Part shown: positions 8,065 to 51,392 of the stretch, piece by piece | How positions within the stretch are numbered: position 1 is the first letter of the stretch | How the letters are laid out: each line of letters opens with the position of its first letter | Source of the DNA: a virus | Virus record (IMG/VR): IMGVR_UViG_3300032240_002557 | Coordinates: 35,913-99,912 of that record | Direction: 5' to 3' (one strand) | DNA: 64,000 bases | Position numbers and translations under genes: made by a program | Notes under the pieces: generated by a model | What the model was told of the DNA's origin: nothing | Seen by the model: only the letters and a program-made list of their open reading frames with translations | The model's database searches: none

Positions 8065-9807
8065 TTAAGCGATACCGCCTGCTGGCACTTGAGCGAAGAA
8101 AGTCAAGTACATAGTTTGAGGGTGGTGTCCAGCCTCTACTAATGCATATCTTGATTTTACTGCGATCTTTGGTGACATTGTACCTTCAGAGATAGTCTGA
8201 ATTGATTCAGCCATCATGTAAGGCATAAATTTGATACCTGGTTCGTCATCAGCACCTTTTCTTCCAATCAATACTCTCGTATCTCCGAAAGACATGTTTT
8301 GATCAACATAAACAGTCATACCAGCGATTGAACCAACTGGGTATAAAGTACCGTTATTTTGAGTTAACGTGTTTGTGAAAGGAGCGAATGTGAATTGGCT
8401 GATATCTTGTAAAGCAGAAGCTACTTGAGAGTTAGTAACGATGAAGTTAGCAGGTCCTCTTCTTCCTCTGTTTGCTACTACGTTAGCAGCAGCTAAGATT
8501 CTTGAGAATAATCTTCTTTGAATAGTTGATTGGTTCTCGTATCCGCCTGAAGCAGGTCCATCAGGTTGGTTGATAGTAACTGATCCGTTATCCTTACCGA
8601 TGTAAGACTTATCGTTACCAGATCCACCGATCTCTAATGTGATGTTTAATGAGTTGTTAGATGCACCACCTAATTCAGTGTTTGCAAACTCATAGTGGTT
8701 AGACCATCCTAAAGCAAATGCTCTAGATAAGATGTGCTTGTTAATAGCTTGAGAAACCTCGTTAACAAGTGCGTTCTCGATCATAGAAACTACGTCGATA
8801 CCGAATTGCTTGTTCAAATCTTGGATTTGCTCAGTAGTAACAGAAGCAGCAACTTGGAATGTACCAGCCTCTACAAACTTAGTGAATGTAGAAAGACCTA
8901 ATGACTTGAAGTAAGTGCTTTCTGCAGTTCCTCTTGACATTGGATCGTAAGCCTTAGTACCATCTACGTATGGTCCTTGCCATGCTGCTGTGTTATCTAA
9001 ACCAGCACCAGTAAATCCTTGTACGTGATCTTCTAAAGTTTTAACTAAAGTAGCCGCGCCATTTGAATAACCTGCTGTTGCAGAAGCTGTGAAGCTTGAA
9101 CCGCCCCAAGTACCTGAATAGATAACAGAGTTAGCGTTAACTGCATCAGCGATTGAATAACCAGCAGATAATGCAGTAACTTGGAAAATAGGGAAACCGT
9201 CAATTCTTGAATTACCGATGAACTTAGCAACTAATTTGCTAGTACCACCTGTAACTGATACAGAACCTGATAATCCGCTAGCACCGATCAAATAGTTTGT
9301 ACCAACTGTTAAACCAACAACTGGAGAAGCTACTGATGTAGGAACTTTGATTAAATCAGGAGCGTTAGCTGTGTTAGGAGATGTAGTATCAGTACCGGTT
9401 AATTTACCGCCTGCATATACATAATCTAAGTAAGATAATACGCCTGTAGGACCAGACATTGGGATAACTGGAACGATATCAAAACCTACTGTTTTAGCAG
9501 CTACTTGAATAGCTAAAGGTAAAAGAGAAGGGAATTTATCGCCAGAACCAAGACCTGTTCCAGAATAAGAACCGCCAGCATAGAAACCAGCAGCACCACC
9601 GTTCAAACCTACGTTTGAAGCTGGAGATACTTGGCCCATACCGTTTAATACGCCTAGAGAGTTATACGCTCCGGCAGATTCGTTTAGAGAGTGATAGTGG
9701 CAATATGTTGTTAACCAGTCTAATTTTCCTCTCTCTTGAATACCTGTTTTGCTCTCTAAGATAGGAGCCCAGGTTTCATAGATTTCATGTTTGTTAATTA
9801 GTTGCAT
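8065..9807 (-). CDS. gp23: Major capsid protein, T4 gp23-like
   Basis: 580 aa. The C-terminal half carries the gp23 family signature: RRLFSRILAAANVVANRGRR, NFIVTNSQVASAL, LIGRKGADDEPGIKF and a final ARVALVEAGHHPQTMYLTF-like stretch (here SRYALVEAGHHPQTMYLTF). The N-terminus has LNE-S at residues 41-44, equivalent to the T4 gp23 processing site (FLTE-A), so the mature protein probably starts at Ser44. A Gly/Ser/Thr-rich region at about 160-250 may be an inserted surface domain. It lies 13 bases downstream of the protease-scaffold gene, as gp23 follows gp22 in T4, and is closed by a strong terminator. No separate late motif is visible before its ATG. Confidence 0.92.
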   Translation of the reverse strand: MQLINKHEIYETWAPILESKTGIQERGKLDWLTTYCHYHSLNESAGAYNSLGVLNGMGQVSPASNVGLNGGAAGFYAGGSYSGTGLGSGDKFPSLLPLAIQVAAKTVGFDIVPVIPMSGPTGVLSYLDYVYAGGKLTGTDTTSPNTANAPDLIKVPTSVASPVVGLTVGTNYLIGASGLSGSVSVTGGTSKLVAKFIGNSRIDGFPIFQVTALSAGYSIADAVNANSVIYSGTWGGSSFTASATAGYSNGAATLVKTLEDHVQGFTGAGLDNTAAWQGPYVDGTKAYDPMSRGTAESTYFKSLGLSTFTKFVEAGTFQVAASVTTEQIQDLNKQFGIDVVSMIENALVNEVSQAINKHILSRAFALGWSNHYEFANTELGGASNNSLNITLEIGGSGNDKSYIGKDNGSVTINQPDGPASGGYENQSTIQRRLFSRILAAANVVANRGRRGPANFIVTNSQVASALQDISQFTFAPFTNTLTQNNGTLYPVGSIAGMTVYVDQNMSFGDTRVLIGRKGADDEPGIKFMPYMMAESIQTISEGTMSPKIAVKSRYALVEAGHHPQTMYLTFFAQVPAGGIA

Positions 9808-9820
9808 TGTTTTATGTAAC

Positions 9821-11893
9821 TTATTTTTTAAATCTAACTTCTAGTGCTTCTGAAAGATTTTTTAAATACTCGCTGGAAACACCTTTTGGTTGATTCTCTT
9901 GTTTTTGGGATTCGTCTATTCTTTCGACGTTTGCCTTAGATGCACCGATACCTCTTGTTGCCCAGAAATTCTGGATTTGATAAGGTGTGTCTAATTTATA
10001 GAATTTGCTCTGTGCCATGATTGAAGCTTTTTGACCCTCATTCATTGACTCCCAAGAGTTTCTATATTTTTCTGGCATAAGATCTAGGAATTTTTCACCT
10101 GATTGATTTTGCTCATTTAAGGTTTTACCCATGATATCAATTACCTCTTTTTCGGATGAGTAATTGCTCTCGTTAAGTGCTTTTGCTGCCTTTTGTTTTT
10201 GGCCTTCGTGCATTGCTAAGAATTGATCTTGATTCTCTTTGCTCATAAGCTTTAAGAAAGGATAATTTTTTTGCTCTGCTATTTGTTCTGTCTTTTGTTT
10301 ATTGACAGTTTCTAACAAGTTGTCTATTTTAGAAGAAATTCCAGTGTAATCACCAGCAAATCCTGAAGTGTTTGCACTTTCAGAAATAGCTTTAGTTACT
10401 GCTTCTTTAACTTCTTTTGTTCCGTTAGCTGTATTCACTGTTTCAGCAATGTATTCAGCATAACTAATATTGTTAGCTAATTTCTCAGCTAAGTATTCAC
10501 TGTAATGAAGTGATTTGTCTAAATTCTCACCTAAGTAATCAGAGTAAGCTAAACCTTTATCTAGGTTTTCTGCTAAGTACTCAGAATAAGAGATATTCTT
10601 ATCTAAGTTCTCTGCTAGGTATTCAGAATAAGCTAAACCTTTATCTAGGTTTTCTGCTAAGTACTCAGAATAAGAGATATTCTTATCTAAGTTCTCTGCT
10701 AAGTATTCTGCATAAGAAATGTTCTTATCTAAATTCTCAGCTACGTATTCTGTATATTTAATGTTTTTGTCTACGTTCTCTGCTACGTATTCTGCATAAG
10801 CAATAGATTGATCAACTTTCTCTGTTAAACCTTTAACTGCTGACATGTTGCTATCAACATTCTCTGCAATATACTCAGAATAAGAAATGTTATTGTCTAA
10901 ATGCTCTGCTAAATATTTAGCATAAGAAATAGATTTATCAAGATTTTCAGCAAGATATTTTGAATATGAAGTTGTGTCTTCTAAGCTTTCAGCTAAGTAT
11001 TCGCCATACTTAATAGAAGCTTCAAGGTTTTCTGCCAAATAATCAGCATATCTCTCTAACTTTTCTACTCTTTCCTCAAGGGAAGAACTTGCTTGTGTTT
11101 TAGAAGATTCTTTAACGCCTCTTAATGATTCAATAGACCCTTTAATAGTGTCCATTTCTTTTTTAATTAGCTTAGAATATCCATTCATTTCTTCCGCTGT
11201 AACGAAATTATTTTCCATGATTAAATTCTTATTTGGCTCCTTATTTAGAAGCTTTTGTATCTTTTCTTGATCTTTTATTCTATATATCTTAAAATTAGAG
11301 TTTTCCTCTATTCCTAAGCTTTCATTCATTAAAGGAAGACCTTTTAAAATAGATTCATTTTTAATTTTTTCACTAACTTCGTGTCCAAGACTTTCATATA
11401 CTCTTTCTAATTGAGCATTTTCAAATCCAGGGTCAGCAACTAGATCGTAAGTAAAGATCTTCTTGATTTGTACTTTTTTGTTCTCTAACACATTACCAGC
11501 TGCTCTTGAAGAGATTGAAACTGGAATACCTGCATCAACTAAAGATTTAGCAATTTTACCTGCTGGTGTATCTAAAAGTCTTACTTTAATCCTTAATGTT
11601 CTATCGTTTTGATCATAGTTAAGTTCTTCAACTAGGTGAGAGATGTTCTTCAAAGAAACATCAAACTCTTTTGGGTGATCTAATTCACCTACTAATCTTT
11701 TTTGCTCTATCTTTTCTTTTAAATATTGCAAATGTGGAAGATACTCTCTTTCCTCGTAGATTCTTTGATTAGAATTCTCCTTACCGAAAACTGCTGCTAT
11801 CCCCTCAAGGAAATAGTCATTACCTGATTTTTCAGTCTTCAGGTTTTGCGAAGATTTTTCTAAGACTAAAACGAATTCGTTATTAAGGTTCAT
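9821..11893 (-). CDS. gp21: Prohead protease fused to scaffold core (gp21-gp22-like)
   Basis: 690 aa. Residues 1-200 are a T4 prohead protease (peptidase S77 family): GELDHP supplies the catalytic His73 and SISSRAAG the Ser near 128, with LLDTPAGK between. T4 gp21 is only about 212 aa. Here the frame continues into a scaffold-like region: about 15 copies of a 14-residue helical repeat (consensus YSEYLAENLDKNIS) at 283-492, then a Gln/Lys-rich tail containing several N-E sites (ALNES, TLNEQ, SMNEG) that could be cut by the protease, as T4 gp22 is. A Met at 226 (LIMENNF, codon at 11216-11218) could start a nested scaffold-only product. A GATATATA motif lies 20 bases upstream. Confidence 0.88.
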   Translation of the reverse strand: MNLNNEFVLVLEKSSQNLKTEKSGNDYFLEGIAAVFGKENSNQRIYEEREYLPHLQYLKEKIEQKRLVGELDHPKEFDVSLKNISHLVEELNYDQNDRTLRIKVRLLDTPAGKIAKSLVDAGIPVSISSRAAGNVLENKKVQIKKIFTYDLVADPGFENAQLERVYESLGHEVSEKIKNESILKGLPLMNESLGIEENSNFKIYRIKDQEKIQKLLNKEPNKNLIMENNFVTAEEMNGYSKLIKKEMDTIKGSIESLRGVKESSKTQASSSLEERVEKLERYADYLAENLEASIKYGEYLAESLEDTTSYSKYLAENLDKSISYAKYLAEHLDNNISYSEYIAENVDSNMSAVKGLTEKVDQSIAYAEYVAENVDKNIKYTEYVAENLDKNISYAEYLAENLDKNISYSEYLAENLDKGLAYSEYLAENLDKNISYSEYLAENLDKGLAYSDYLGENLDKSLHYSEYLAEKLANNISYAEYIAETVNTANGTKEVKEAVTKAISESANTSGFAGDYTGISSKIDNLLETVNKQKTEQIAEQKNYPFLKLMSKENQDQFLAMHEGQKQKAAKALNESNYSSEKEVIDIMGKTLNEQNQSGEKFLDLMPEKYRNSWESMNEGQKASIMAQSKFYKLDTPYQIQNFWATRGIGASKANVERIDESQKQENQPKGVSSEYLKNLSEALEVRFKK
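10424..11047 (-). repeat. Tandem 42-bp (14-residue) coding repeats in the scaffold region
   Basis: About 15 in-frame copies encode Y-[SA]-E-Y-[LV]-A-E-N-[LV]-D-K-x-[IL]-x. Two adjacent double units are nearly identical in DNA: about 73 bases at 10545-10617 recur at 10629-10701, offset 84, indicating a recent tandem duplication. The period equals two heptads, as expected for a coiled-coil rod. Confidence 0.95.
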
Positions 11894-15295: not shown

Positions 15296-15311
15296 CTGAA
15301 TATTTTAGTAC

Positions 15312-15319
15312 TATATATC
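15312..15319 (-). promoter_or_regulatory. Late-type promoter motif GATATATA
   Basis: Minus-strand octamer 16 bases before the GTG start at 15295, in the 40-base gap after the exonuclease gene. Its spacing supports the GTG start. Confidence 0.6.
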
Positions 15320-15335
15320 CAGTAAGGGTTTATTG

Positions 15336-16040
15336 TTAGTCGAAAGAGAAAGATTCGTAGCACTTTATCAAGTACTTAACATCCATTTCGCAGTATTTCT
15401 TAATCTCTTCTATTCTTCCTGAGTGGAAATATGGGTGAACCATAGATCCGTCCATGTCATCTTTAGGTGATTCGTGGCCGAAAACAGAACACATTAGATC
15501 TAGAGATGAATGGGTTTGTCCATAACCACCAAAGGCAAAAACCTCTGAGATATCAATAACAGGAGAATCCCACGGTTTTCTGTTTAATTGGCCTATAATA
15601 GGGGAAGGATCTATTTTATTAATTATCATTCTTTTACCAACAAAAGGAATGTCAAAATTCTTAATCGTATGACCTCCTAATTTCCAACCTTTTGTCACTG
15701 CATTATTAAAGATCTTATTAGCATTGCTAAGGAGTTCGTTTTCTTCGCCAATGATTGATTGAATCTTAACATCATCTCCGCTGTATGCACCGAAGCTAAT
15801 GCAAACAACTTTAGCAAATTCTGGATGTAAGGAAGATTTTTCTAACCAAAGTTGATCCTCTGTAGCATCTTTGTATTCCTCGCCTGAATTCTTTCTAAGC
15901 CAAACACATCTTTTTTCCCAGATCTTAGCAAGCCTAGGATCCTCAGATTTTAAATCAGAAAAATTTTCATAGATACCTGCTGTCTCTATATCAAAATAGA
16001 GAATCTTTTTAAGTGTGCCTTTACTTATCATATTAGCCAT
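15336..16040 (-). CDS. DEDD-type 3'-5' exonuclease (PolB exonuclease-like)
   Basis: 234 aa. Exo I motif YFDIETAG at residues 14-21, Exo II around GGHTIKNFDIPF near 120, and Exo III KYCEMDVKYLIKCY near 215. This is the arrangement of stand-alone 3'-5' exonucleases related to family B polymerase proofreading domains (DNA_pol_B_exo2-like). Likely acts on DNA ends or mismatched 3' termini. It overlaps the upstream glycosylase gene by 13 bases, which places it in a repair operon. Confidence 0.8.
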   Translation of the reverse strand: MANMISKGTLKKILYFDIETAGIYENFSDLKSEDPRLAKIWEKRCVWLRKNSGEEYKDATEDQLWLEKSSLHPEFAKVVCISFGAYSGDDVKIQSIIGEENELLSNANKIFNNAVTKGWKLGGHTIKNFDIPFVGKRMIINKIDPSPIIGQLNRKPWDSPVIDISEVFAFGGYGQTHSSLDLMCSVFGHESPKDDMDGSMVHPYFHSGRIEEIKKYCEMDVKYLIKCYESFSFD

Positions 16041-19830: not shown

Positions 19831-22161
19831 TTAGTCTTTCTTTAATAAGTTTTTTAATTCTTCTATTTGAATTTGTTGCTCTTTGATTCCCTGAATCAAT
19901 AATGAAACTATATTACCGTAAGAAACCATTAATGTTCCATCTTCTTTAGTCGTAATAACTTCAGGTAGTACCCTTTGTATCTCTTGTGCTATTACCCCTG
20001 CTCTTCTTGATTTGTCATCAGAATCTGTTCTAACAAAAGTGACACCTCTTATTTGCATAATCTTTTCTAGTGCATCTTTTATCTCTTCAACGTTCTCTTT
20101 TACTGATTCGTCGGAATAAGCAGCTATATCACCAGATGCGTAAATTGATACGCCACTTACGTCCCCTTCTACGTGTATCGGCCATCCAGGGGAAGCCGTA
20201 TTATATCCAAGTCTTTGAGAGGATGCATTCCAATAAAGTTTAGTTGTTGATTCAATATTAGTGCTACTTGTAAAGTATGCTAAATATGGGGTTGTCCCTG
20301 AATTTGTACCAGGTCCTACTGCTCCTTGAGCTCCTGTATATCCCTGAGCCCCTGCTGCTCCTTGTGATCCCGTTGCTCCTTGAGCTCCTGTTACACCCTG
20401 AGCTCCCTGAGCTCCTGTTCCACCCTGTGCCCCTTGAGTTCCAGTTGCTCCTTGAGCTCCTGTTGCTCCTTGAGCCCCGTTAACCCCAGATCTTCCCGAA
20501 GATCCCGAAGTTCCAGCATTTCCTGAAGTTCCTGCTGTCCCTGCTGGTCCAACTGCACCATCTAGATTTAGATTCCATATATCAGTAGAAATATAGCTAT
20601 TTGCCCCTGTTACTGCATCGATTTTAATGTCTAAATAGCCATTAGCTTTAATAAATCCGATTACAGTACCTGTTATGAAATTATCAGCATCGATTGCAAG
20701 AACTACACTTTGTGCTACAGTATATGAAAGGTTTTGCGATATGGTGTTAAAATATGCATTAGTACCTAATAAACTTTGAGATAGAGTTATAGACCCACCA
20801 GTATTGTGGGTAAGATCCGTCAAATAAGCAGTGTCTGCATATTTGTCCCCGGCTATTCCAGAACTACCTGAAGTACCTGTAGTTCCTGACGTTCCTGTTG
20901 TTCCTGAAGATCCAGAGGATCCTGCTCTTCCTGAAGATCCTGAGGTACTACTAGTTCCAGAAGAGCCTGATGACCCATCTTTACCTGATGAACCTGCTGA
21001 TCCTGAAGTACCCGTTGATCCTGAAGTACCCGTTGATCCTGATGTTCCAGTTCTCCCAGAAGATCCTGAAGTACCAGTTGATCCTGATGTTCCGTTCATT
21101 CCAGAAGTTCCTGAACTTCCACTTGCTCCTTGAGCACCCTTAGGTCCGATTGTTCCCGATTCACCAGAAGTTCCTGATGTGCTGCTGGTTCCTGAAGATC
21201 CTGATGTTCCTGTTCTACCTGAAGATCCTGCACTTCCTGATGTTCCATTATTACCGTTATCACCATTAGCTCCTGATGTACCTGCTGATCCAGATGTCCC
21301 CGAAGATCCATTAGGAGGTCCAGGTTCACCTTGTGCTCCTTGTGCACCCTGTGCTCCTGAAGCTCCCGTTGCACCATGTGCTCCTGAGAAAGTTATCCAA
21401 TCTGTAACACCATCAATACCTCCTGACATTTCTCCACCGTCTTCTAAAAGTGTTATTCCTGTTAATTCAAAAGTTATCGCTGCTCCGTTTAGGTATTCAG
21501 CATATCCACTTACTGATTTAAGTGTGACTGTAGTTGCGTCTGAGATAGCTTCTATTTTAGTATTAGAAGATAAAACTATATCTGCTACTATTTGCTGTCC
21601 TGTTTTGTAAACAACGTCTTGACACGTTGAAGTAACTAGAAGTACTCCGTCAACATAAATCTTAATAGTACCACCTAGTACAACACCAAGTATAGTAAAA
21701 GTAAATGACGAGGGGGTTTCTCCACTATAAGCGTATCCCTGGAAATCTTTTCCTGTAAATCTAATTTGTCCAGGTACTGAAGGTTTTGTTAGCTCTGTGT
21801 TTCGATCTGGTCTAAGTCTTACCCTACCACCGTCTCCTTTCTTGTTATAAACATCAATATCTCCACCAACAAAAAGATCTTTAGAAAGATTAGTAGAAGA
21901 AGCTGTAATTCCTCCGTTATTTCCGTCCATCACTATTTTAGCTACTCCTGTTGCAGGAAGTTGGACTGAATTTGCTCTAAGTATGTTTACAAAGAAATCT
22001 GCGCTCTTTGCGTCCATGCCTGGTATTTCTATAGTAATACCAAAAGTGGACTGTAAAAGCGCTATAGCGTCTTTTAACTGCTTAAAATTTTGATCTATTG
22101 TTAGATCTTTGGTATTCGATGTCGAAACCGGCTGTATGGTTAAATCTGTTAGTTCTGTCAT
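19831..22161 (-). CDS. Tail fibre/adhesin with Gly-rich repeats and S74 intramolecular chaperone
   Basis: 776 aa. N-terminal 1-260 is probably the virion attachment and a beta domain. Residues about 262-445 and 540-625 are triplet Gly repeats of two kinds: GTSGSSG-type and collagen-like GAQGATG-type. The C-terminal ~110 residues (SDESVKENVEEI...IQIEELKNLL) are a peptidase S74 domain, which trimerises fibres and then cuts itself off; the Ser at the start of SDESVKENV is the expected cleavage region. A GATATATA motif lies 19 bases before the ATG. Likely a host-recognition fibre. Confidence 0.85.
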   Translation of the reverse strand: MTELTDLTIQPVSTSNTKDLTIDQNFKQLKDAIALLQSTFGITIEIPGMDAKSADFFVNILRANSVQLPATGVAKIVMDGNNGGITASSTNLSKDLFVGGDIDVYNKKGDGGRVRLRPDRNTELTKPSVPGQIRFTGKDFQGYAYSGETPSSFTFTILGVVLGGTIKIYVDGVLLVTSTCQDVVYKTGQQIVADIVLSSNTKIEAISDATTVTLKSVSGYAEYLNGAAITFELTGITLLEDGGEMSGGIDGVTDWITFSGAHGATGASGAQGAQGAQGEPGPPNGSSGTSGSAGTSGANGDNGNNGTSGSAGSSGRTGTSGSSGTSSTSGTSGESGTIGPKGAQGASGSSGTSGMNGTSGSTGTSGSSGRTGTSGSTGTSGSTGTSGSAGSSGKDGSSGSSGTSSTSGSSGRAGSSGSSGTTGTSGTTGTSGSSGIAGDKYADTAYLTDLTHNTGGSITLSQSLLGTNAYFNTISQNLSYTVAQSVVLAIDADNFITGTVIGFIKANGYLDIKIDAVTGANSYISTDIWNLNLDGAVGPAGTAGTSGNAGTSGSSGRSGVNGAQGATGAQGATGTQGAQGGTGAQGAQGVTGAQGATGSQGAAGAQGYTGAQGAVGPGTNSGTTPYLAYFTSSTNIESTTKLYWNASSQRLGYNTASPGWPIHVEGDVSGVSIYASGDIAAYSDESVKENVEEIKDALEKIMQIRGVTFVRTDSDDKSRRAGVIAQEIQRVLPEVITTKEDGTLMVSYGNIVSLLIQGIKEQQIQIEELKNLLKKD
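20278..20540 (-). repeat. Collagen-like GAQ/GAT triplet repeats of the S74 fibre (second block)
   Basis: Encodes G-x-x triplets, mostly GAQGAxG, between the central beta region and the S74 domain. The DNA is repetitive with an 18-base feel (GAQGAT pairs). Confidence 0.85.
20827..21378 (-). repeat. GTS/GSS triplet repeats of the S74 fibre (first block)
   Basis: About 180 codons of Gly-[Thr/Ser]-Ser triplets with occasional inserts. The Gly-every-third pattern suggests a triple-stranded rod without proline-rich collagen chemistry. The same design recurs in the fibre at 34496-35920. Confidence 0.85.
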
Positions 22162-26549: not shown

Positions 26550-28232
26550 TTAAGCCTCCGGTGCTGGTGTTTCAGCAGCGGGCTCTGCAGCAGGCTCGGC
26601 AGCAGGTTCAGCAGCAGGTTCAGCAGCAGGCTCTGCAGCAGGTTCAGCTGCAGGGGTAGCCCCCCCTTCAGTAGCAGTAGTTGCTGATTCCTTACCTTCC
26701 TCCTCCTCTTTCTTCTTGTATATGTCATTAACCCTTCTGTCCTCATTGGTTAATCCTAAGAACTTATCTATAAGGAATCCCTGGTCAAAGAAAGGAAGTT
26801 CTTCCTCTCCAACTTTTTCTTTAATGTCAGAAAGTCCTGCTATAAAATCTATCTTTTTAATTAATTGCTCTATCTCTTTAGATTCCCCAAATTGATTATC
26901 GGAATTAAATTTAATTCCTAATTGGGATCTAAAGATTGGATCCTCACCTAATTCCGGATGATCTAATGTCATCTGAATCCACAAAGGCTTAAGGAGAATT
27001 TCTTGATAGATCGATCTAATTCTATTAATGAATTTATTATATCTAATTTCGTCTCTTTCTGCGGATTCAGCACCAATCTTATAAGTACCAACTGTACCCC
27101 CGGATCTTGCAGCAAATCTGTTAAAAGGAATTTTAGAATCTGCTTTCAATTTATTGAAGAAATAAACTACAGCATCAATAACATTAAGATTTGGACCTGC
27201 GTTATTTATTGTTTCAACCTTAGGAGATTCCCCACCTTGCACAGGAAAAAGATAGTTTTTATAAAACTGAAGTTCTGGTCTACCATTAATACTTAATTGG
27301 CCGGAATCTGTGTTTAAATTGATGTCTTCTTTATACATGCTCATCAATTCGCCTAGGGTTTCTTTTGCTTTTTGCGGTGATCTAGATCCAACAGGAATTG
27401 TCATCTTAATTCTGAAAGAAGCATTCATTACGTTCCAGATAATTCTGGTATGCTCCATAATCTTTAGTAAGTTATGGGATCTAATTAATCTTTCAACATA
27501 ACTGGATCTGCTTGCACTATTTCCTTTAGTAAAAGAGATATAAATTACTTGTGCATCGTATAATCTTCTTTCTTTGGTTGAATCACCATAGTATTGATAC
27601 CAAACTTGTTCTGCCTGTCCTTTAGCGTTTCTTTCAATAGAAGGTGTTAATGAAATTGGATCTAATTCTTTAAATCCTACAATATCTTTTCCTGTATCTG
27701 AATAAACTATTTCAAATGCAAGAAATCCTTCAATCAAAAATTGTCTAAAATATTGCCACGCAGAAATTCCATTATTGAATCCATGAAGAATATACATTTT
27801 TCTAAAATTCTCCCTAAGTGAATCTGCAACTTCATCAGTTAAATCCATATTAACTAACGAAAGATTACAACAGAAATTTCTATCATCATAAACAATCGCT
27901 TCGTCTGCTAAGATATCTAGGATCCATTCTATTTCTGCATTCAAAGAAAAACTTCTTAAAAAATCTCTTTTGAAAGGATAATCCTTATCAAAATAAGCAA
28001 TGTATTTTCTGTTATATGTGTCTTGAGAAGCTAGGCTGAAAATAAAATCTTCATCAGAATCAGTAATAGCTAATTTCTGTCTTAGCATAGCTTCAGAAAC
28101 CCCAATAGCTTGTGAATTTTTGACAACAAGATCTTTGTACTCCATTCCGAAGCTACCAATTTTGCTAACCGCCTTAAGTATACGACCTAGGTTAGGGTTG
28201 CTTATCGAAAAATTGTCTATAAATCCTGCCAT
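26550..28232 (-). CDS. gp20: Portal protein paralogue 2, gp20-like
   Basis: 560 aa. Homologous along its length to the adjacent 531-aa portal (roughly half identical by eye in the first 330 residues: IGSFGMxYxDxVVKNSQAIG, YIAYFDxDY, IVYDDxNF, FKELDP, SYVERLIRS, IMEHTRxIWNVMN, SPQKAK). T4 has one portal gene. The C-terminus ends in about seven PAAE repeats not found in the other copy. Portal rings sit at the capsid vertex and pass DNA. Which copy builds the ring, or whether they mix, cannot be told from sequence. Confidence 0.88.
   Translation of the reverse strand: MAGFIDNFSISNPNLGRILKAVSKIGSFGMEYKDLVVKNSQAIGVSEAMLRQKLAITDSDEDFIFSLASQDTYNRKYIAYFDKDYPFKRDFLRSFSLNAEIEWILDILADEAIVYDDRNFCCNLSLVNMDLTDEVADSLRENFRKMYILHGFNNGISAWQYFRQFLIEGFLAFEIVYSDTGKDIVGFKELDPISLTPSIERNAKGQAEQVWYQYYGDSTKERRLYDAQVIYISFTKGNSASRSSYVERLIRSHNLLKIMEHTRIIWNVMNASFRIKMTIPVGSRSPQKAKETLGELMSMYKEDINLNTDSGQLSINGRPELQFYKNYLFPVQGGESPKVETINNAGPNLNVIDAVVYFFNKLKADSKIPFNRFAARSGGTVGTYKIGAESAERDEIRYNKFINRIRSIYQEILLKPLWIQMTLDHPELGEDPIFRSQLGIKFNSDNQFGESKEIEQLIKKIDFIAGLSDIKEKVGEEELPFFDQGFLIDKFLGLTNEDRRVNDIYKKKEEEEGKESATTATEGGATPAAEPAAEPAAEPAAEPAAEPAAEPAAETPAPEA
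26553..26640 (-). repeat. PAAE-coding 12-bp repeats at the portal C-terminus
   Basis: Seven or so in-frame copies of a 12-base unit encode Pro-Ala-Ala-Glu. Variable copy number between strains would be expected. Confidence 0.9.
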
Positions 28233-28234
28233 AC

Positions 28235-29830
28235 TTAAAGTTTGATTTCTCCTTCGGTTTCAGCTGCTGCTTCGCCACCGCCTGCAGCTGCTTCTTCCTC
28301 TTTCTTTTTCTTAGTTAATTCTTTTGCTTTTTCGTTTGCTATCTTGTCATCGTCAGTCATTCCTAAATATTTGTCTAAAACATATTTCAGTGAGAAATAA
28401 GGCTTTCCGTCTGCATCTAGTAGTCCTGCTATTTTAGATACTTGATCCTTCCTAGCATTCAGGATTTCCATGTATCTTGTTTCAGCAAAAGAGTTATCCT
28501 TAACATAATCTAAACCAAATTGACTCTTAATCATAAAATCCTTAGAATGCTCTGGAAAATCTAAACAGAACTGAATCCAAAGAGGTTTTAAAAGTATGTC
28601 TTGGAAAATTGATCTTAATCTAGTTATAAATTTAAAGAATCTTATTTCTTCCTGGTCTAGTCCTTCTGCGTTACCGCTAAAAGTTCCCATTGTTCCCCTA
28701 TCATCCCTATCGAATCTAGAATAAGGAATTTTAGAATCTAATTTCAATTTATCAGCAAAATATGCTAATGCTTTAAGGTCACTAAAAGGCGTAGCATCTC
28801 CGCTACCTGTTAGAGGTGTAATATCCGGCGTTCCGTTAGGTGTTGATGGCATTAAATAGTTCTTAAAGAACTGAATATTTGGTTTACCGTTTACAAATAA
28901 TTCTCCGCTATCCTGATCTAATCTAATATCTTCCTTATAGATGCTCATTAATTCAGCTAAGCTCTGTTTTGCCTTTTGCGGGGATTTAGTTCCTATTGGA
29001 ACTGTCATAGTCATACGGAAAGAAGAATTCATTACGTTCCAGATAACCCTAGTGTGCTCCATAATTCTAAGGAGATTAAAAGATCTAATTAATCTTTCAA
29101 CGTAGCTAACCCTAGAAATAGTATTTCCTTTAGCGTATGAAATATAAAGAATTTGAGAATCGTAAAGTTTTCTTGTTAAAGAAGGATTGTCAGGATATTG
29201 AATCCAGATCTCAACGAAATTACCGTCTATTTGTTTTTCAACGGAAGGGAGTAAAGACTGAGGATCTAATTCTTTAAATCCGATAATATTTTTACCTCTG
29301 CTATCAAAAACTATTTCAAAAGCAAGTATACCATCTATTAATAGACTTCTAAAGAAATGCCATCCTGAAATATCTTCATTGAATCCAAAAAGATTATAGA
29401 TCTGTTTATACCTCTCGTGGATTTTTGCTTCTTTTTCCTCGCCAAGGCCTTTAATATCAGTATTAGTGAAATATGAGAAAAAATTCTTATCGTCATAAAC
29501 AATTGCCTCGTCACAAACTGTATCTAGGATGAATTCAATCTCCGGATTAAGTGCAAAGTTTCTTAGGTAAGTTTTTTTGTTGGCATAATCCCTATCAAAG
29601 TATGCGATATACTGCTTAGCGGTTGTATCTGCTTTCTTTAATGCATAAAGTAGGCTTTCGTCAGTAATTCCCCCTGTTCTAATAACTGCGCTTTCTGAGG
29701 GCCCAATGGCTTGAGAGTTTTTAACTACCATGTCCCCGTAGCTCATCCCAAAGGATCCTATCCTCTTAAGGGAGTTCATCAAATTACTGAAAAACGGGTT
29801 GGTTCTATTATCTTCTAAAAATCCTGCCAT
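28235..29830 (-). CDS. gp20: Portal protein paralogue 1, gp20-like
   Basis: 531 aa. Same family blocks as the downstream copy, including AIVYDDKNF, GFKELDPQSLLPS, SYVERLIRSFNLLRIMEHTR and MSIYKEDI. The C-terminus is a short charged Ala/Glu/Lys tail. It lies 2 bases before paralogue 2 and is preceded by GATATATA 15 bases upstream, so this copy is likely the first translated. Given the closer fit to a plain T4-type portal end, it is the more probable standard portal. Confidence 0.9.
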   Translation of the reverse strand: MAGFLEDNRTNPFFSNLMNSLKRIGSFGMSYGDMVVKNSQAIGPSESAVIRTGGITDESLLYALKKADTTAKQYIAYFDRDYANKKTYLRNFALNPEIEFILDTVCDEAIVYDDKNFFSYFTNTDIKGLGEEKEAKIHERYKQIYNLFGFNEDISGWHFFRSLLIDGILAFEIVFDSRGKNIIGFKELDPQSLLPSVEKQIDGNFVEIWIQYPDNPSLTRKLYDSQILYISYAKGNTISRVSYVERLIRSFNLLRIMEHTRVIWNVMNSSFRMTMTVPIGTKSPQKAKQSLAELMSIYKEDIRLDQDSGELFVNGKPNIQFFKNYLMPSTPNGTPDITPLTGSGDATPFSDLKALAYFADKLKLDSKIPYSRFDRDDRGTMGTFSGNAEGLDQEEIRFFKFITRLRSIFQDILLKPLWIQFCLDFPEHSKDFMIKSQFGLDYVKDNSFAETRYMEILNARKDQVSKIAGLLDADGKPYFSLKYVLDKYLGMTDDDKIANEKAKELTKKKKEEEAAAGGGEAAAETEGEIKL

Positions 29831-30402
29831 TAACTATATTTGCTGTATATATCGTTTAGTGTAGCCCCCTCAATAGATTTAGTGTCTAGGTAAAATATGT
29901 ATTTCCATTCTTCCAACGGAATTTCCTTTAAACCCTTAATTTTTTCTATCTTGTAGCCACGATATGCATGATTATACTTGATACCAGACATAATAGTTTC
30001 TAAAAATGGGACATCAAATTTGAGTGGCATCCTTGCAGAAGCTTCTTTTGCCTCGTTTTGTTCCATTATTTTCCCATAAACCGCATTGATCTTAACTAAG
30101 AAATTAGTTCGGTTCCTTGGGGTCATTAGAATAAGATCTATTCCTTTTATAATGCTTCTTGTAGGTGTTATGTCTCTGGCTTCAAAGAAAATAACTGGTC
30201 TTCTGTTAACAAAGTCTTTTTCGCTCTTAGGCATAGAATCATAGAAAAAGGTGTAAATCTTCCCAGGTACTAAGCTTCTTAAAGAGTCTGAAGATTTTAG
30301 AACCGAATAATTTTCTCGATAATGCAAAAAGCTTTCCTCTGTCAATCTGGCAGGTGATCCCGATTTCTCTATTGCATCCCTGACCATTTTTCTAATATCC
30401 AT
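29830..30402 (-). CDS. Conserved-looking hypothetical protein of the head/neck operon
   Basis: 190 aa. The middle reads VPGKIYTFFYDSMPKSEKD followed by PVIFFEARDITPTRSIIKGIDLILM. This resembles a protein shared by T4-like phages with the pattern 'F-Y-D ... R-P-V/L ... G-I/L-N/D-L', but I cannot name it. Basic, mixed alpha/beta. Its start overlaps the stop of the gp4-like gene and its stop overlaps the portal start by 1 base each, suggesting coupled translation and a role in head assembly. Confidence 0.55.
   Translation of the reverse strand: MDIRKMVRDAIEKSGSPARLTEESFLHYRENYSVLKSSDSLRSLVPGKIYTFFYDSMPKSEKDFVNRRPVIFFEARDITPTRSIIKGIDLILMTPRNRTNFLVKINAVYGKIMEQNEAKEASARMPLKFDVPFLETIMSGIKYNHAYRGYKIEKIKGLKEIPLEEWKYIFYLDTKSIEGATLNDIYSKYS
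29846..29853 (-). promoter_or_regulatory. Late-type promoter motif GATATATA
   Basis: Minus-strand octamer 15 bases before the first portal ATG at 29830, embedded in the end of the upstream 190-aa gene. Confidence 0.6.
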
Positions 30403-30896
30403 TATCTAAAAATGAAATTTTCATCAATAGCACCAAATTTGTAGCCATTGTTCTTTGCAAATCCCATAGCAGCATCAAATTTAGCCCTATTTACTATCCA
30501 GACCTTCATTTGCTCGTTATGAGCTCTTATTCTCTTCTCTGTCAAATTGCCTTTTAGTTCTGGCTTTTTGTCCAGCTGATACTGTGCAGCTGGTTTAATC
30601 TCTATAATCCAATCCTCTATAGTTCCGTCCGTCTTTTGAACCTTTATGTAATAATCAGGATGATATATGTGAGTTTTTTTGTCTATCGGATTCCAATATT
30701 CAATCTGAACAGCTTCCGAAGCCCATTTTAAAATGTTTGGGTTTCTGTCACAGTACTGACAGAATCTTCCTTCCCAGGATGATCTGTAAATAATGTTGTG
30801 AATATCTCCAATGTATTTTTCAGGACTTTGAGGTACGAATTTTCCAGATTTGAACCTCCCGTTAGGTATAACATTTTTTATATTAACCTTAGACAT
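30402..30896 (-). CDS. gp4: Head completion nuclease, gp4-like (TnsA/PD-(D/E)XK fold)
   Basis: 164 aa. SPEKYIGDIHNIIYRSSWEGRFCQYCD matches the T4 gp4 (gp50) N-terminus. HPDYYIKVQK followed by DWIIEIKP supplies the PD-(D/E)XK catalytic Asp, Glu and Lys. The protein is needed in T4 for head completion and probably trims DNA ends. It overlaps the upstream sigma gene by 8 bases and abuts the 190-aa gene. Confidence 0.88.
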   Translation of the reverse strand: MSKVNIKNVIPNGRFKSGKFVPQSPEKYIGDIHNIIYRSSWEGRFCQYCDRNPNILKWASEAVQIEYWNPIDKKTHIYHPDYYIKVQKTDGTIEDWIIEIKPAAQYQLDKKPELKGNLTEKRIRAHNEQMKVWIVNRAKFDAAMGFAKNNGYKFGAIDENFIFR

Positions 30897-31245
30897 TGTA
30901 ATTTTGATTATCGTCTTTAGTTAATCGAGAAAATGGGATCGTTTTAATTGATCTGGTTGAATGTATCTTTTTCCATCCTTTTTGCATACCATTCTTTGCA
31001 ATTTGTGAAATAAAAGCAAATGGATTATCGGATTTAGCTGGGTCAAATCTGTCCCAATATTTAATTAAATCTTCTAGTCCGAATGCTATACAATCTTCTT
31101 TATCTTCGATGTCCCTATAAGATTTTGTCTTTGAAAGACCGTTTACGATTAGTGTAAACATTTTAACAGTCTCAGGAGTTAACCTTCCCTTCTCTTTAGA
31201 TTCTAGTAGCGCCCTCTTTAAATCTTTGTTTTTTACATACTCCAT
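30889..31245 (-). CDS. gp55: Late transcription sigma factor, gp55-like, short form
   Basis: 118 aa. YVKNKDLKRALLESKEKG, LIVNGLSKTKSY, EDKEDCIAFGLEDLIKYWDRFDPAKSDNPFAFISQIAKNGM matches the sigma region 2-like core of T4 gp55 (185 aa), which directs RNA polymerase to late promoters. It ends shortly after this core, so the C-terminal clamp-binding hydrophobic tail of T4 gp55 is absent or supplied elsewhere. The window's GATATATA motifs in front of structural genes are its plausible targets. Overlaps the 65-aa gene by 1 base. Confidence 0.8.
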   Translation of the reverse strand: MEYVKNKDLKRALLESKEKGRLTPETVKMFTLIVNGLSKTKSYRDIEDKEDCIAFGLEDLIKYWDRFDPAKSDNPFAFISQIAKNGMQKGWKKIHSTRSIKTIPFSRLTKDDNQNYNV

Positions 31246-31483: not shown

Positions 31484-33805
31484 TTACTTTTTTTTTGCAG
31501 CTGGAGCTTTAGCTAAAGTTGCTCTGTTCAATGGCTCGTGATCTTTCTTACCATTTTTATTATGATTACCTGGTGCTTCAGCTAATTGTGCCTTCTTAGT
31601 TCCAGTTTTTTTAACCTTCAATTTTTTAGCTTTAGGAGCTGGTGCTTTCTCGTAATTAACATTATTTTGAGATTCTGCTAGATTATGATCATTTAAATCT
31701 TCAATAAACTTAGAAGCGTTTGGTGCAGTACCACCTGGTGCATCAGCTAAATTAAAATTTTTCTCATTTTGAATAAACTTCTTATCTTTTCCAGCTTTTG
31801 CGCTAGGTGCTTCTGATAACTCATGATTGCCACTTACTCCTTTAGGATCTTTTGATTTAGAAGAAGTTCTTGCTGGAGCTTCCGCTAATGAATGATCTTT
31901 AAGATTTTCTACGTCTGCTGCAGAACCTGAAGCTTTACCCCCTGGTGCTTTAGCTAAATTTGCATTCTTATTGTTTTCAACAAATTTCTTATCTTTTCCA
32001 GATTTTCCTAATGGTGCTTCTGCTAATTCCATATCAGCATCTAAACCTTCGTTAGTTTCATCATCTTCTGTTAAATCACCAGCTACTTCTAATTTAGCGT
32101 TGCTGATTTCATCAGATATATTGATAACATCGTTGTAGAAAAATTCGCCTGTTCTTCCGTTCTCAAACATTACTGTGTAAGTTTTAGAATTACCATTTAC
32201 ACCTACTACTGTTCCTTTTTCTCCATTTCTTTTAACTTTAACTTCTGTATTAATTTCGTATCCTTCGCTTTCGTTTACTTTACTAATTTTCTTTGCACCT
32301 TTTTCAAATCTTTCTATTTCAACATTGATTTGATTCCATTTTGCTTTTAATTCTGTTGATTCTTTAACCAACATATCTTTTGCTTCTTTAACTTCTTCAG
32401 AATCAGCTAAACGTGGATTAAGTTCGATTGCTTTATTAATCTTGTTCATTTCGTTTTCAACGATTGATAGATTAGCCTTAATCGCCTCTTTGTCATTCTT
32501 CATGATAGAAAGAACTTGAGCTTCTTTTTCTAAAACGTTAGTCATAGATTCAGAAATATCAAATCCTAAGAATTCTTTAACTAAATTAACTGCTTGGCTT
32601 CCGTTTCCTTCTAAAAGTTCATTCTTCTTCATAGCAGGATTTACTCTGTGAACATAAACTTTTTCACCAAATTTAAAGATGTTAGCTTCTACGCCTTCAT
32701 AAACTCTAGAAACGATTTTCTTACCAAAATCAACTTCAGAAAGATAATCAGCTGCAGCTACTACTTCAGTTGCTTGTTCTACAACAGCAGCAGAAGATTG
32801 AAACGAATTTCTCAATTCGAAAGAAAGAACAAATCCTAATTTTTCTTGAGGAATTCTTTTTTCGTTTAAGAATACTGCTTTAGTATCTGTTTCGCTTTCA
32901 AAAACAACAGATAATTTATTTTTACCAATATACATGTCTAATCCGCTTTCGTTAATTTTAACGTTAGGATTAGAAAGTGCTAAAACTGCTTTTAAGAATT
33001 TACCAGGTAATTTAGATGCGTCTGCTCTTTCTAAAACAGATACGCCATTCTCTGTTGCTCTAAAGAACCTATTAGAAGTAACAAAGATTGAAGAATTCTC
33101 AGCAACTAAGCTAGGAGCTATAATGCTCTTAACATCACAATTTTCAGATTTAACTTTGATGCTAAATTTGTTTTGGTTGTTGCTTTCTAAATAGTTAATT
33201 CTTTCAACTAAAGTTCTAACAGTAGGATTGAATCCCCATTTGTTAAGACCTTTTAAAAGCTTTTCAGAAACTTTATCATCTGATGTTAACCAGTTTCTCA
33301 TTGCTTCTGTGATAGTAGAGAAAAGATCTTTACCGCCTGATCTATTGATTTCCTCAATAGCTTTAGCTACTTCAATTTCTCTTCTATTGCTCTCGTATGT
33401 TTTCTTAAGATTATCTAATGCATGTTTAGCATTTTTTTCCCAAGCAAAGTTTTCCAATTCTTGAATCATCCCCTCAATTAAGAATGCCTCTGAAATTCCT
33501 TTAATAGCAACGTGGTTGATGTATTTTTCTGCAAGTACTTTAGCTTCTGCAAGTTCAACAAAACTAGTTTGTTTTAATGCCATTGCAGTTTCAAGCACTC
33601 CAACAGAGAATGATGGCTTAACCATCTTAATATCTTCTGATGAGATTTGTTCTATTTCTTTTTGTCTGCCATCTACATAAGATCCAGCAGCACCTGGATT
33701 AAATCCTTGGTTTCCTCCCCAGCTCTCGTTAAGAAACGCTGCAGCAGCCTTGGCCTTTTCCATTTTTATCTGTGACAGATTATCGTCAAAGTTCATTTTA
33801 TCCAT
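31484..33805 (-). CDS. Head-associated protein with LAEAP repeats and predicted processing site
   Basis: 773 aa. FLNES at residues 24-28 gives a predicted prohead-protease cut after Glu27. Residues about 30-520 are helical and unassigned. Residues about 535-580 (VKVKRNGEKGTVVGVNG...FENGRTGEFF) look like a small KOW/SH3-like barrel. The last 180 residues are a basic low-complexity tail with repeated LAEAP/LAKAPGG motifs and about two copies of a ~70-residue unit. A GATATATA motif lies 22 bases upstream. Inference: a packaged or capsid-lining protein, the basic tail perhaps touching DNA. Confidence 0.6.
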   Translation of the reverse strand: MDKMNFDDNLSQIKMEKAKAAAAFLNESWGGNQGFNPGAAGSYVDGRQKEIEQISSEDIKMVKPSFSVGVLETAMALKQTSFVELAEAKVLAEKYINHVAIKGISEAFLIEGMIQELENFAWEKNAKHALDNLKKTYESNRREIEVAKAIEEINRSGGKDLFSTITEAMRNWLTSDDKVSEKLLKGLNKWGFNPTVRTLVERINYLESNNQNKFSIKVKSENCDVKSIIAPSLVAENSSIFVTSNRFFRATENGVSVLERADASKLPGKFLKAVLALSNPNVKINESGLDMYIGKNKLSVVFESETDTKAVFLNEKRIPQEKLGFVLSFELRNSFQSSAAVVEQATEVVAAADYLSEVDFGKKIVSRVYEGVEANIFKFGEKVYVHRVNPAMKKNELLEGNGSQAVNLVKEFLGFDISESMTNVLEKEAQVLSIMKNDKEAIKANLSIVENEMNKINKAIELNPRLADSEEVKEAKDMLVKESTELKAKWNQINVEIERFEKGAKKISKVNESEGYEINTEVKVKRNGEKGTVVGVNGNSKTYTVMFENGRTGEFFYNDVINISDEISNAKLEVAGDLTEDDETNEGLDADMELAEAPLGKSGKDKKFVENNKNANLAKAPGGKASGSAADVENLKDHSLAEAPARTSSKSKDPKGVSGNHELSEAPSAKAGKDKKFIQNEKNFNLADAPGGTAPNASKFIEDLNDHNLAESQNNVNYEKAPAPKAKKLKVKKTGTKKAQLAEAPGNHNKNGKKDHEPLNRATLAKAPAAKKK
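31487..32026 (-). repeat. LAxAP repeat region in the 773-aa protein
   Basis: Encodes repeats of the form LAEAP...GKDKKF(V/I)xNxxN...LA(K/D)APGG...ENL-DH-LAE. Two long units of about 70 residues plus shorter partial copies. The repeated strings are clear in translation and partly at DNA level. Confidence 0.85.
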
Positions 33806-34495: not shown

Positions 34496-35920
34496 TTAAG
34501 AAAAATTTTGAAGATATGACCCAAAGTACTTAGAATCAACATAAACAAATGTATACACATCATATTTATTTGCTCCTGCTGTCATAGTTGGGGTTGAAGC
34601 CCATGTCACAGATCCTGGCCAACCGACTGTGTATCCTCCAGCAGCTCCTTGTTTAACAACTAATATGTATGTTCCACCAGCTTTTCCGTCGTTGAAAGTG
34701 AATGTTGTTGCGCCGGTTAAAGTGTAAAACTGAACATTCCCATTATCCCAATCTATTGTTGCTGATGATGCTGTGTAAGAATTTGCCCAAGCTTGACCGT
34801 TTACCTGTATATTTCCTGTATAAGGACTTAAGAAAGAAGAGCCAGAAGAGCCAGAAGAGCCAGAAGTACCTGACGAGCCATTAGGAGCACCTTGTTTCCA
34901 GTATACTTTACCTGTAGGATCCCCAGGATTGAAAGGATTTGGGTCCCAAACTAAATACTTATCCAATGCTGGGCCTTGTGTAATACCCGAAAGATAAATT
35001 TCACCATCTACGCTAAGATCTGCCTGAGAATGAACACCATATTCATCAATATGAGCTTTCCATATATTCCCAACCAAAAATTGGTGTTGATACCCATCAG
35101 GAACGTGATTTTCTACGTACCCTTCCCATGGTTGACCAGGTAATCCTTGTCTAACTAAAATACCTGCAGTTCCTGATGTTCCATCTTCATGAGTTATTAT
35201 CTTAAAAGTATTGTCCCCTAATGGTGTATAAAATTCTGGATTTATAATAAGTGTATTCCCATCAAATCTGAGATTTGGATTAGCCTCTGCAACAGATCCA
35301 TCAGAATTTGATGTTAAGATAGCATTAGCACTAGGACTGTTTATTGTTACTCCTGGTCCTACTGAACCCTGAGCTCCGTGTACACCCTGAGCTCCTTGAG
35401 CTCCTTGAGCTCCAGTTCTACCATCAAGATTTACTGTCCATTGGTTGTATGTACCAGTTCCGATTTTTTCATTAACCTTCATCACTAAAGTACCGTTCGG
35501 GTTATATGAAACTATTTCCCCGTGAAAATGGTTAAAATCATCCCTTGCTACTATTAAGTTTTGTCCCGGAGAATATTCTAAGCTATGATCTGCTACCATA
35601 GTTATTTGATTTCCTACAACAAGGGTTGAAAGATTTATTGATCCATTTATAAAACCTCTATACTTAGCGCTAACCCCAGATGATCCTGATGACCCTGAAG
35701 TTCCGTGCGTTCCTGATGTTCCAGAGGATCCAGAGGATCCGGATGATCCAGATGTTCCAGATTCCCCAGAGGATCCATCTGTTCCTGATGTTCCTGAGGT
35801 TCCTGATAAAACTAAATCCTTGCCTATTTTTGAAGTCACGTTTCCAACAACACCAACTAACCAATCACCGGGATTAAAAGATGTTGCTATTGGTAAGGCT
35901 GTTATTCTTATTCCTGCCAT
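34496..35920 (-). CDS. Tail fibre protein with Gly-triplet repeats
   Basis: 474 aa. A short N-terminal domain (MAGIRITALPIATSFNPGDWLVG), then GTSGSSG triplets at about 38-82, a beta domain, a collagen-like GAQGAQG block near 168-190, another beta region, a second short GSSGTSG block near 345-360, and a C-terminal beta domain ending in FVYVDSKYFGSYLQNFS. N-terminal sequence of this kind (ALPxAxxxxxxDxL) is common in attachment domains. Lacks the S74 domain of the fibre at 19831. Confidence 0.75.
   Translation of the reverse strand: MAGIRITALPIATSFNPGDWLVGVVGNVTSKIGKDLVLSGTSGTSGTDGSSGESGTSGSSGSSGSSGTSGTHGTSGSSGSSGVSAKYRGFINGSINLSTLVVGNQITMVADHSLEYSPGQNLIVARDDFNHFHGEIVSYNPNGTLVMKVNEKIGTGTYNQWTVNLDGRTGAQGAQGAQGVHGAQGSVGPGVTINSPSANAILTSNSDGSVAEANPNLRFDGNTLIINPEFYTPLGDNTFKIITHEDGTSGTAGILVRQGLPGQPWEGYVENHVPDGYQHQFLVGNIWKAHIDEYGVHSQADLSVDGEIYLSGITQGPALDKYLVWDPNPFNPGDPTGKVYWKQGAPNGSSGTSGSSGSSGSSFLSPYTGNIQVNGQAWANSYTASSATIDWDNGNVQFYTLTGATTFTFNDGKAGGTYILVVKQGAAGGYTVGWPGSVTWASTPTMTAGANKYDVYTFVYVDSKYFGSYLQNFS
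35675..35809 (-). repeat. GTS/GSS triplet repeats of the second fibre
   Basis: About 45 codons of Gly-Thr-Ser and Gly-Ser-Ser triplets, of the same kind as the first block of the S74 fibre. Confidence 0.85.
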
Positions 35921-49580: not shown

Positions 49581-51392
49581 CTAAAAGAAGTCCTTAAAAA
49601 CGTTATAGGTTTCCATTTCCCTCGACGAAGGGTCAGAACTACCGCCAAGTTCTGAGTTTTCTGCCATTTTTTTATTTATGGCATTTTTGTATTTATCTGG
49701 TAAAGTGTCAAATATATCCATTACAGTATAAGCAAAATCCTGATATTCAAACACTGCATTTGCGTTTACGAGGGTCATTGCAATATCATCATTCCCTATT
49801 TGGCTCTGGTAAATACCCCTGCTAGTTTCACCAAAATTGCTCAATTCCATAATCGTAGATCTTTCAGTAGGAATTATTCTGGAGTTCCTTGTATTAATTT
49901 TTAAGTCCTCGCAATACTTCTCTTTTGTCTTTGGTGTCACTTTAACTCCTGCCTTGACTTGTTTAGAACTTTCTGTATGTTTTGTGTAGACGAACATTTC
50001 TGCAAAGAATTTTTCACCTGAAATTAATTTCTCAATTAAATATTCTCCTCTGTAGTCTACCTCTACCACAACCCTCAATTGTTCAGGATTAAAGACCTCA
50101 GTGCAAAGGATCTCTAAAAATACCTTTAATTCCTCTATTTGAATTGTATTAGATTTAAAGAGACCAACTTGTAAGAGCGAGAAAAAATCTGATTCATCTT
50201 CGAAAAATTTCTTTTCCTCAATCATATTCAAAGGTTTAGGCGAAATCTTTAGAATGTTAACTACACTATAGTCTCCCCCTCCCCCGCCTGCAGTATCGAC
50301 AGAAACTACAAATCTTTTACCCTCCCCGTCTTCCCACATATTAGTTGGATCAAAATTAGGATGCCATTTAAGATTACCGTAATCAACTATTGAATTTTGA
50401 AATGGATATAATTCTTTATGTACGAAATCAACTTCGGTCTTTTTAAGTTTTTTGAGCGTATATGAATCTAATAGAAGTTTAGAAGAGCTTAAAAATTGAT
50501 TTCCATATTCCTGATTAAAATCCTCTTCCGATCCTAAGTTTGCAATTTCTTTTCTTTTCCACTCCTCGTCTCTACCTGGAACTTGCCACCAATCCACACG
50601 AATCGGGTTAAATTCATTCTCACCATCTATAGCTGATTTATAAATTTCATAGAATTTATTCATCCCATTTGGCGTTGATGTAATAATGATCCTTGATATT
50701 TTAGAGGAGGAGATTGTCGGATATACTGATTTAAAGAATTGACCGATGAAATTTGGATTAATATGTGCAAACTCATCCATGTATAGGAAGTGAACAGTAA
50801 AACCGATAGATGACTGTTTAGTTGTAGTCTTAGCCATGATTCTACATCCATTGTCGAATTTCATGGTCATAACGTTATAAACAAGTACACCTGGTTTCAA
50901 GAAGAAAGGTAATCCCTTCATAATAATCTTGATCTTGTCCATCAATTCTGTTGCAGTATCACCAATATTAGCAAGAATCATGGCATTTTTATCAAAATTA
51001 AAAAGAAGATACCACAGAAGAAAAATTGAAGAAGTTACGGTCTTACCGCTCTGTCTTGGACTTAAAAAGATATTAAATCTGTGCTCCTGATATTGACTTA
51101 AAATTTGTTCTTGGTAGTCCCTTAAAGTGATTTTTCTAATCCCCTCATCGGTCATTGCATTACAATAAGTATTAGCAAAATATCTAACATCAGATGCACA
51201 TTTTTTAATTTCAGAAATCTCTTCCTCTGTGTATTCGAAAAGAATTCCACCCCTTCTTAGTTCCGGATCATTCTCGTGGAATGGGTTATCAACATCTTTG
51301 AAATCTATACCGTTTTCGTCGGCATTATTGATTATCTTATTGATACGTTCAGTCGTCCAATAATTACTGGACTGTTTTTCCTCTGCTGCCAT
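49581..51392 (-). CDS. gp17: Terminase large subunit, gp17-like
   Basis: 603 aa. ATPase: Walker A SPRQSGKT at 111-118, Walker B LYMDEFA at 203-209, coupling motif STPNG near 235. Nuclease: VSVDTAGGGGGDYSV near 365 with the first metal Asp, then VEVDYRGEYL and later acidic residues. Packs DNA into the head through the portal and cuts the concatemer. It follows the putative small subunit by 2 bases. Confidence 0.95.
   Translation of the reverse strand: MAAEEKQSSNYWTTERINKIINNADENGIDFKDVDNPFHENDPELRRGGILFEYTEEEISEIKKCASDVRYFANTYCNAMTDEGIRKITLRDYQEQILSQYQEHRFNIFLSPRQSGKTVTSSIFLLWYLLFNFDKNAMILANIGDTATELMDKIKIIMKGLPFFLKPGVLVYNVMTMKFDNGCRIMAKTTTKQSSIGFTVHFLYMDEFAHINPNFIGQFFKSVYPTISSSKISRIIITSTPNGMNKFYEIYKSAIDGENEFNPIRVDWWQVPGRDEEWKRKEIANLGSEEDFNQEYGNQFLSSSKLLLDSYTLKKLKKTEVDFVHKELYPFQNSIVDYGNLKWHPNFDPTNMWEDGEGKRFVVSVDTAGGGGGDYSVVNILKISPKPLNMIEEKKFFEDESDFFSLLQVGLFKSNTIQIEELKVFLEILCTEVFNPEQLRVVVEVDYRGEYLIEKLISGEKFFAEMFVYTKHTESSKQVKAGVKVTPKTKEKYCEDLKINTRNSRIIPTERSTIMELSNFGETSRGIYQSQIGNDDIAMTLVNANAVFEYQDFAYTVMDIFDTLPDKYKNAINKKMAENSELGGSSDPSSREMETYNVFKDFF

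Follow-up and report, generated by a model that had tools for sequence, protein, structure and literature searches.

The portal of phage T4 is encoded by one gene and built as a ring of identical subunits (PMC4493910), which raises the question of why the virus studied here carries two adjoining portal genes and what their products do. The window (the whole stretch of DNA analyzed, 64,000 nucleotides) covers positions 35,913 to 99,912 of IMG/VR record IMGVR_UViG_3300032240_002557, a virus record of 99,912 bases. A preliminary description had recognized two full-length paralogues of T4 gp20 lying 2 bases apart and roughly half identical over their first 330 residues, and each of these points held. 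Both open reading frames, termed P1 and P2 in their order on the minus strand (Table 1), are intact, and the spacer is indeed 2 nt. The proteins share 48% identity across 506 amino acids (E = 7e-178), with 54% over residues 1-330 and a further 40% over residues 331-500, so that similarity spans the full length.

Profile searches placed both proteins in the T4 portal family. Against PF07230 (Portal_T4; 433 positions, curated cut-off 22.9), P1 scored 217.7 bits over profile positions 7-429 and P2 scored 204.8 bits over positions 9-427, nearly the whole family profile in each case, and the closest solved structures by sequence were those of T4 gp20 (PDB 3JA7, 6UZC, 9MKB). Foldseek searches with AlphaFold models likewise returned T4 gp20 as the top match for both (E = 9e-19 and 2e-18), with TM-scores of only 0.40-0.53; the models were of low confidence (pLDDT 63 and 59), and the assignment of a portal fold thus rests mainly on the profile matches. 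With domain limits mapped onto T4 gp20 from PMC4493910, the wing, stem, clip, tunnel loop and crown were all covered in both proteins, the conserved N-terminal motif was kept, and about 90 alignment columns were invariant among P1, P2 and single portals. At the clip tip, where T4 contacts the terminase (N291, M292, R295, K296), P1 has K/K and P2 has R/K at positions 292/296, both have Q at 295, and the net charge is +3 in P1 and +2 in P2.

Table 1. Features of the window (positions in the window)
Feature	Position	Strand	Evidence and remarks
Portal copy 1 (P1), 531 aa	28235..29830	-	PF07230 E 3e-64; phrog_213; ends in short hydrophobic motif EIKL
Portal copy 2 (P2), 560 aa	26550..28232	-	PF07230 E 3e-60; phrog_213; C-terminal (PAAE)n tail
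P1-P2 junction	28233..28237	-	P1 stop TAA (28237-28235), 2-nt spacer, P2 ATG
gp2-like DNA end protector	29830..30402	-	phrog_429 E 4e-7; directly upstream of P1, position conserved
gp4-like head closure protein	30402..30896	-	phrog_218 E 6e-43; upstream of portal in doubles and singles
gp55-like late sigma factor	30889..31245	-	phrog_234 E 2e-16; same block as gp4-like gene
Large terminase, single (partner of portal clip)	49581..51392	-	phrog_5989, phrog_2
Major capsid protein, single	8065..9807	-	phrog_138, phrog_28442; PF07068 in one frame only
Prohead protease	9821..11893	-	phrog_207
Tail sheath, single, 1132 aa	46101..49499	-	phrog_34521, phrog_23; adjoins tube pair
Tail-tube copy 1 (T1), 190 aa	45488..46060	-	phrog_32623, phrog_3629, phrog_45
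Tail-tube copy 2 (T2), 192 aa	44900..45478	-	adjoins T1; tube profile matches
Tandem pair, 196 and 186 aa	35934..37084	-	distantly related, E about 1e-7; no family match
773-aa protein	31484..33805	-	upstream of portal block; LAEAP/LAKAP-like repeats in C-terminal third
Collagen-like proteins	19831..22161; 34496..35920	-	GAQGAQG and (GTSGSSG)n repeats; mutual paralogues, E 1e-23
Resembles ribosomal protein S6 glutaminyl (glutamate) ligases	266..1738	+	phrog_2599; among few large plus-strand genes

The statement that T4-like phages have one portal gene stood up to a tblastn search of 50,697 phage records with P2, which returned 2004 places in 2002 records. Only LR756501 and LR756503, which agree in length and match coordinates, gave a second place; in LR756501, the one examined, it was rejected as a portal, being a 58-position C-terminal fragment (positions 15166-15351 of LR756501.1, minus strand) isolated in a 101-aa frame, and the true portal of this phage (735 kb) lies far away. 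The annotated relatives PAU, PTm1, pT24 and MA9V-2 have one portal gene, and a single portal place was seen in each of the Lak and LR7565xx records. Searching bacterial and archaeal genomes with P1 yielded no relative. Scans of IMG/VR, however, recovered 62 distinct complete adjacent portal pairs (doubles), as well as 74 distinct single portals in sister phages (singles). The pairs form two deep lineages, P (n = 47, window included) and Q (n = 15), and define a widespread, uncultured group of T4-related phages. A single gene per genome is usual in the PF07230 family without being a formal criterion of it; all double contigs carry two. These counts hold on long contigs as well: exactly two portals on doubles of up to 244,850 bases, and one on singles of up to 236,071 bases.

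Both genes are maintained within this group. No loss of either copy was seen among contigs with room for both portal genes, and incomplete members were all truncated by a contig end, with the exception of L033 and L120. These two short contigs are the only ones with a broken copy-1 frame (positions 1-1059 and 1527-3161, respectively), reflecting either error or true decay. Median dN/dS was 0.016 for P1 and 0.026 for P2, values that point to strong purifying selection on both genes. The question of whether relatives keep both copies is thereby answered affirmatively, and the scenario in which one copy decays in relatives is ruled out by the 62 intact pairs and a dN/dS of ∼0.02. In all 62 distinct complete pairs the P2 start codon lies at -1 to 15 nt from the P1 stop, a range consistent with translational coupling.

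Phylogenetic analysis traced the pair to a single old duplication. In a tree of 98 rows, copy 1 of lineages P and Q formed a clade (support 100/99) and copy 2 a weaker one (bootstrap 88-90; 90/54 in this tree, 88/88 with a reduced set of sequences). The doubles as a whole fell in one clade (100/99), with singles outside. Independent portal duplications in P and Q were rejected (AU P = 4e-4). Duplication therefore occurred once, before the P/Q split, and both copies have been retained since. The P1 and P2 subtrees broadly mirror one another, with similar stem lengths (0.66 and 0.58), and at fixed differences P1 is more derived than P2 (14 versus 5 derived sites). T4 and its annotated relatives, by comparison, have one gene where these phages have two that are old, diverged and co-maintained.

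Divergence between the copies is concentrated in channel and crown elements. Identity between P1 and P2 reaches 75% in a stem and clip stretch (residues 243-290) and falls to 14% in the channel-loop region (330-352) and 30% in the crown (446-500), and the channel loop, tunnel loop and crown are the sites of greatest difference. Within lineage P, fixed differences are commonest in the clip, tunnel loop and wing B. Tunnel loops in T4 probably touch neighboring subunits and aid formation of the 12-mer (PMC4493910); in lineage P their net charge is about -1.5 in copy 1 and +2.9 in copy 2 (singles, -1), and that of the crown is about 0 in copy 1 and about -7 in copy 2 (singles, -7). This split is weak or altered in lineage Q, so complementary tunnel-loop charge was rejected as a general rule, being true of lineage P only, and is used here as a hint.

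The C termini differ in a way that does not follow orthology. In single portals the C terminus is a short hydrophobic motif (MGM, MGF, LGI). A similar end (FKL, FTL) is found on copy 1 in 43 of the 47 lineage P pairs, where most second copies end in Pro/Ala/Glu or related Gly/Ala-rich repeats. Lineage Q is reversed, with a Pro-rich tail on copy 1 in all 15 pairs and FTL at the end of copy 2 in 13 of them. The preliminary description assigned the PAAE tail to the second copy only, which is correct for the window and fails in lineage Q. A tree in which orthology follows tail type was rejected (AU P = 3e-6), and with the reversal this means that tail type is not tied to one orthologue. In most pairs one member retains the ancestral-type hydrophobic end. 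Such switching would be expected if both copies serve one complex, and less so if they formed separate rings with their own roles; C-terminal recombination without functional meaning could be an alternative source.

The portal pair adjoins gp4- and gp2-like genes, as in T4, and the order gp4, gp2, portal is shared, where examined, with single-portal relatives (LR756500, PTm1, pT24, PAU, Lak and IMG/VR lineage S), among which LR756500 and lineage S have the nearest portals (44-49% identity). These relatives differ in having one portal and, where found, one tube. Lineage P doubles run sigma factor, gp4, gp2, P1, P2 and then, where the contig reaches, ligase and clamp-loader genes (the ligase was not detected in L022). 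Single-portal relatives have the protease and major capsid genes right after the portal or no more than a few genes further on. In the window they lie (8065-11893) ∼15 kb from the portals (26550-29830), indicating that the group with the duplication also has a rearranged head block. The 773-aa protein, encoded upstream of this block and possibly located inside the head or serving as a scaffold, is conserved in lineage P doubles, and its matches in singles are weak or undetected. Presence of S21 did not separate doubles from singles. LR756500 is from an uncultured huge phage, PTm1 and pT24 are Tenacibaculum phages, PAU is a Sphingomonas phage and Lak phages infect Prevotella; as the nearest annotated phages infect Bacteroidota (Tenacibaculum, Chryseobacterium, Prevotella) or Sphingomonas, the host probably belongs to the Bacteroidota.

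The preliminary description covered the portal pair and missed that the tail tube is doubled in parallel. When the proteins of the whole record were all compared with one another, four paralogue pairs emerged: the portals, two tandem tube genes (T1 and T2), a weak tandem pair without a family match, and two collagen-like proteins. No second terminase or sheath paralogue was found in the 99.9-kb record. T1 and T2 are 51% identical and both match profiles of the T4 tail-tube gp19 family (phrog_3629, 7e-6 for T1 and 6e-4 for T2; phrog_45, about 7e-5 for both), with strong matches to phrog_32623, a profile without assigned function. In a 244.8-kb double contig the major capsid, protease, terminase, sheath, Hc2-like, gp4-like and gp2-like genes were all single (the terminase match was divided solely by reading the sequence in 20-kb pieces), so that among core virion genes only portal and tube are duplicated. 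The weak tandem pair is also present in that relative and was not found in the single-portal contig G005. A tube pair occurred in all 24 portal-double records with a complete tube locus (double record G050, which starts within the locus, was left out), and a single tube in all 20 portal-single records, counts that reflect few evolutionary events (one stem) and not 24 independent ones, which makes the association suggestive rather than statistical proof. Tube trees placed singles outside; independent tube duplications in P and Q were not rejected (AU P = 0.18). A tail with two or more tube-fold proteins has precedents in gp19/gp54 of T4 and in Afp1/Afp5 of contractile injection systems. Those are diverged, specialized rings; T1 and T2 arose side by side within this group. 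Unlike the gp19 family of T4, they are tandem copies, present in the examined portal-doubles and absent from portal-singles.

Taken together, we favor an obligate mixed ring of co-translated P1 and P2, probably accompanied by a mixed tube, and give this explanation about an even chance of being right. An ancestor of this Bacteroidota-associated T4-like group would have duplicated its portal gene once, both copies being needed ever since. Made from nearly touching genes, P1 and P2 would each fold as a portal subunit and co-assemble into one dodecamer at the usual head vertex, in the simplest case six of each in alternation, with C6 rather than C12 symmetry. Near-identical ring subunits would normally co-assemble after a duplication, and loss of self-sufficiency on either side would then make both essential. 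Tunnel loop, channel loop, crown and C-terminal tail would each occur in two versions per ring, so that DNA gripping, contact with internal head proteins and DNA retention might be divided between alternate subunits. T1 and T2 would probably form mixed hexamers likewise, so that DNA would travel between head and tail tip through a conduit of two components. Conserved coupling, absence of loss, similar divergence of the copies and tail switching all fit the mixed ring, and both paralogues are intact and co-inherited without loss, as a two-subunit ring would require. The uniformly short distance between P1 stop and P2 start would suit matched synthesis of the two proteins, and membership of both copies in one complex would most readily account for the hydrophobic end being on opposite copies in lineages P and Q. 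The comparisons establish two intact, maintained portal genes of a single old origin; we infer that both proteins are in the virion and that ring and tube are mixed, with the portal subunits alternating 1:1. The full proposal, an obligately two-component conduit in which a mixed portal, probably with six of each subunit, is continuous with a mixed T1/T2 tube, is more tentative, and we think it somewhat likelier to fail in part than to hold throughout.

Sequence alone cannot separate a mixed ring from two pure portals with separate jobs, that is, homododecamers that serve at different times or in separate particles, such as two types of virion or a ring that initiates assembly and is replaced afterwards. 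Such an arrangement would agree with the completeness of both proteins and with their sharp divergence in the channel loop and crown beside a well-conserved stem and clip. We nonetheless consider it unlikely, since tight gene coupling is ill-suited to separate deployment, there is one gene each for major capsid protein, protease and terminase, tail type does not follow orthology, and subunit contacts would have to exclude cross-assembly despite the ∼90 invariant columns. Similarly doubtful is a division into one true portal and a specialized minor or accessory portal-fold protein (an assembly initiator, or an internal head, neck or plug protein), which the preliminary description had offered alongside a two-subunit ring. 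The long Pro/Ala/Glu tail and positive tunnel loop of P2 speak for it, as does the more derived state of P1 at fixed differences. It fits less well than the ring, which is the best-supported mechanism, because neither copy has lost a portal module (channel, clip and wing are kept), stem lengths are similar, purifying selection is strong on both, and the tail changes copy between lineages.

Two further explanations have very little probability. Many lineage P contigs have P2 in the frame of P1, with 1-3 stops or codons between them, which would allow a fused double subunit through stop readthrough; in the window, however, P2 is in a different frame, and several relatives have two or three successive UAA stops at the junction, so readthrough fusion was rejected. 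A redundant or decaying duplicate, a recent local duplication or an assembly artifact, for which the broken frames of L033 and L120 might be cited, is the least credible of all and is refuted by the two deep lineages with their 62 distinct complete pairs, with no loss and a dN/dS of about 0.02.

A literature search found no report of a two-gene portal; the abstract of a paper on bS21 phages speaks of "portal vertex proteins", but that paper describes no duplication and has a single defined PVP. Portals are regarded as homo-oligomeric rings, and in models of packaging and DNA gating the subunits are taken to be equivalent and to face a terminase whose symmetry differs from theirs. We know of no portal made of non-identical subunits. 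A ring that became two-subunit after duplication is known in the fungal V-ATPase proteolipid ring, where a ring-subunit duplicate has likewise been retained with its partner; in contrast to that case, the composition of the portal ring here is inferred from genes. The replacement of homomers by heteromers after duplication is among the subjects discussed in PMC11066126, and the phages described here may offer a viral example of why homomeric rings turn heteromeric. For annotation, the portal gene is not usable as a single-copy gene in these phages. The doubled portal and tube suggest a DNA channel of two subunit kinds. If this is true, it would be the first portal of non-identical subunits known to us, with a component of a viral ring motor turned heteromeric and the same change made twice along one axis. 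With the tube duplicated as well, the idea can be tested over the full length of the head-tail axis, and a two-gene portal that nature has preserved across a deep radiation would open the question of which portal functions can be shared out between subunits.
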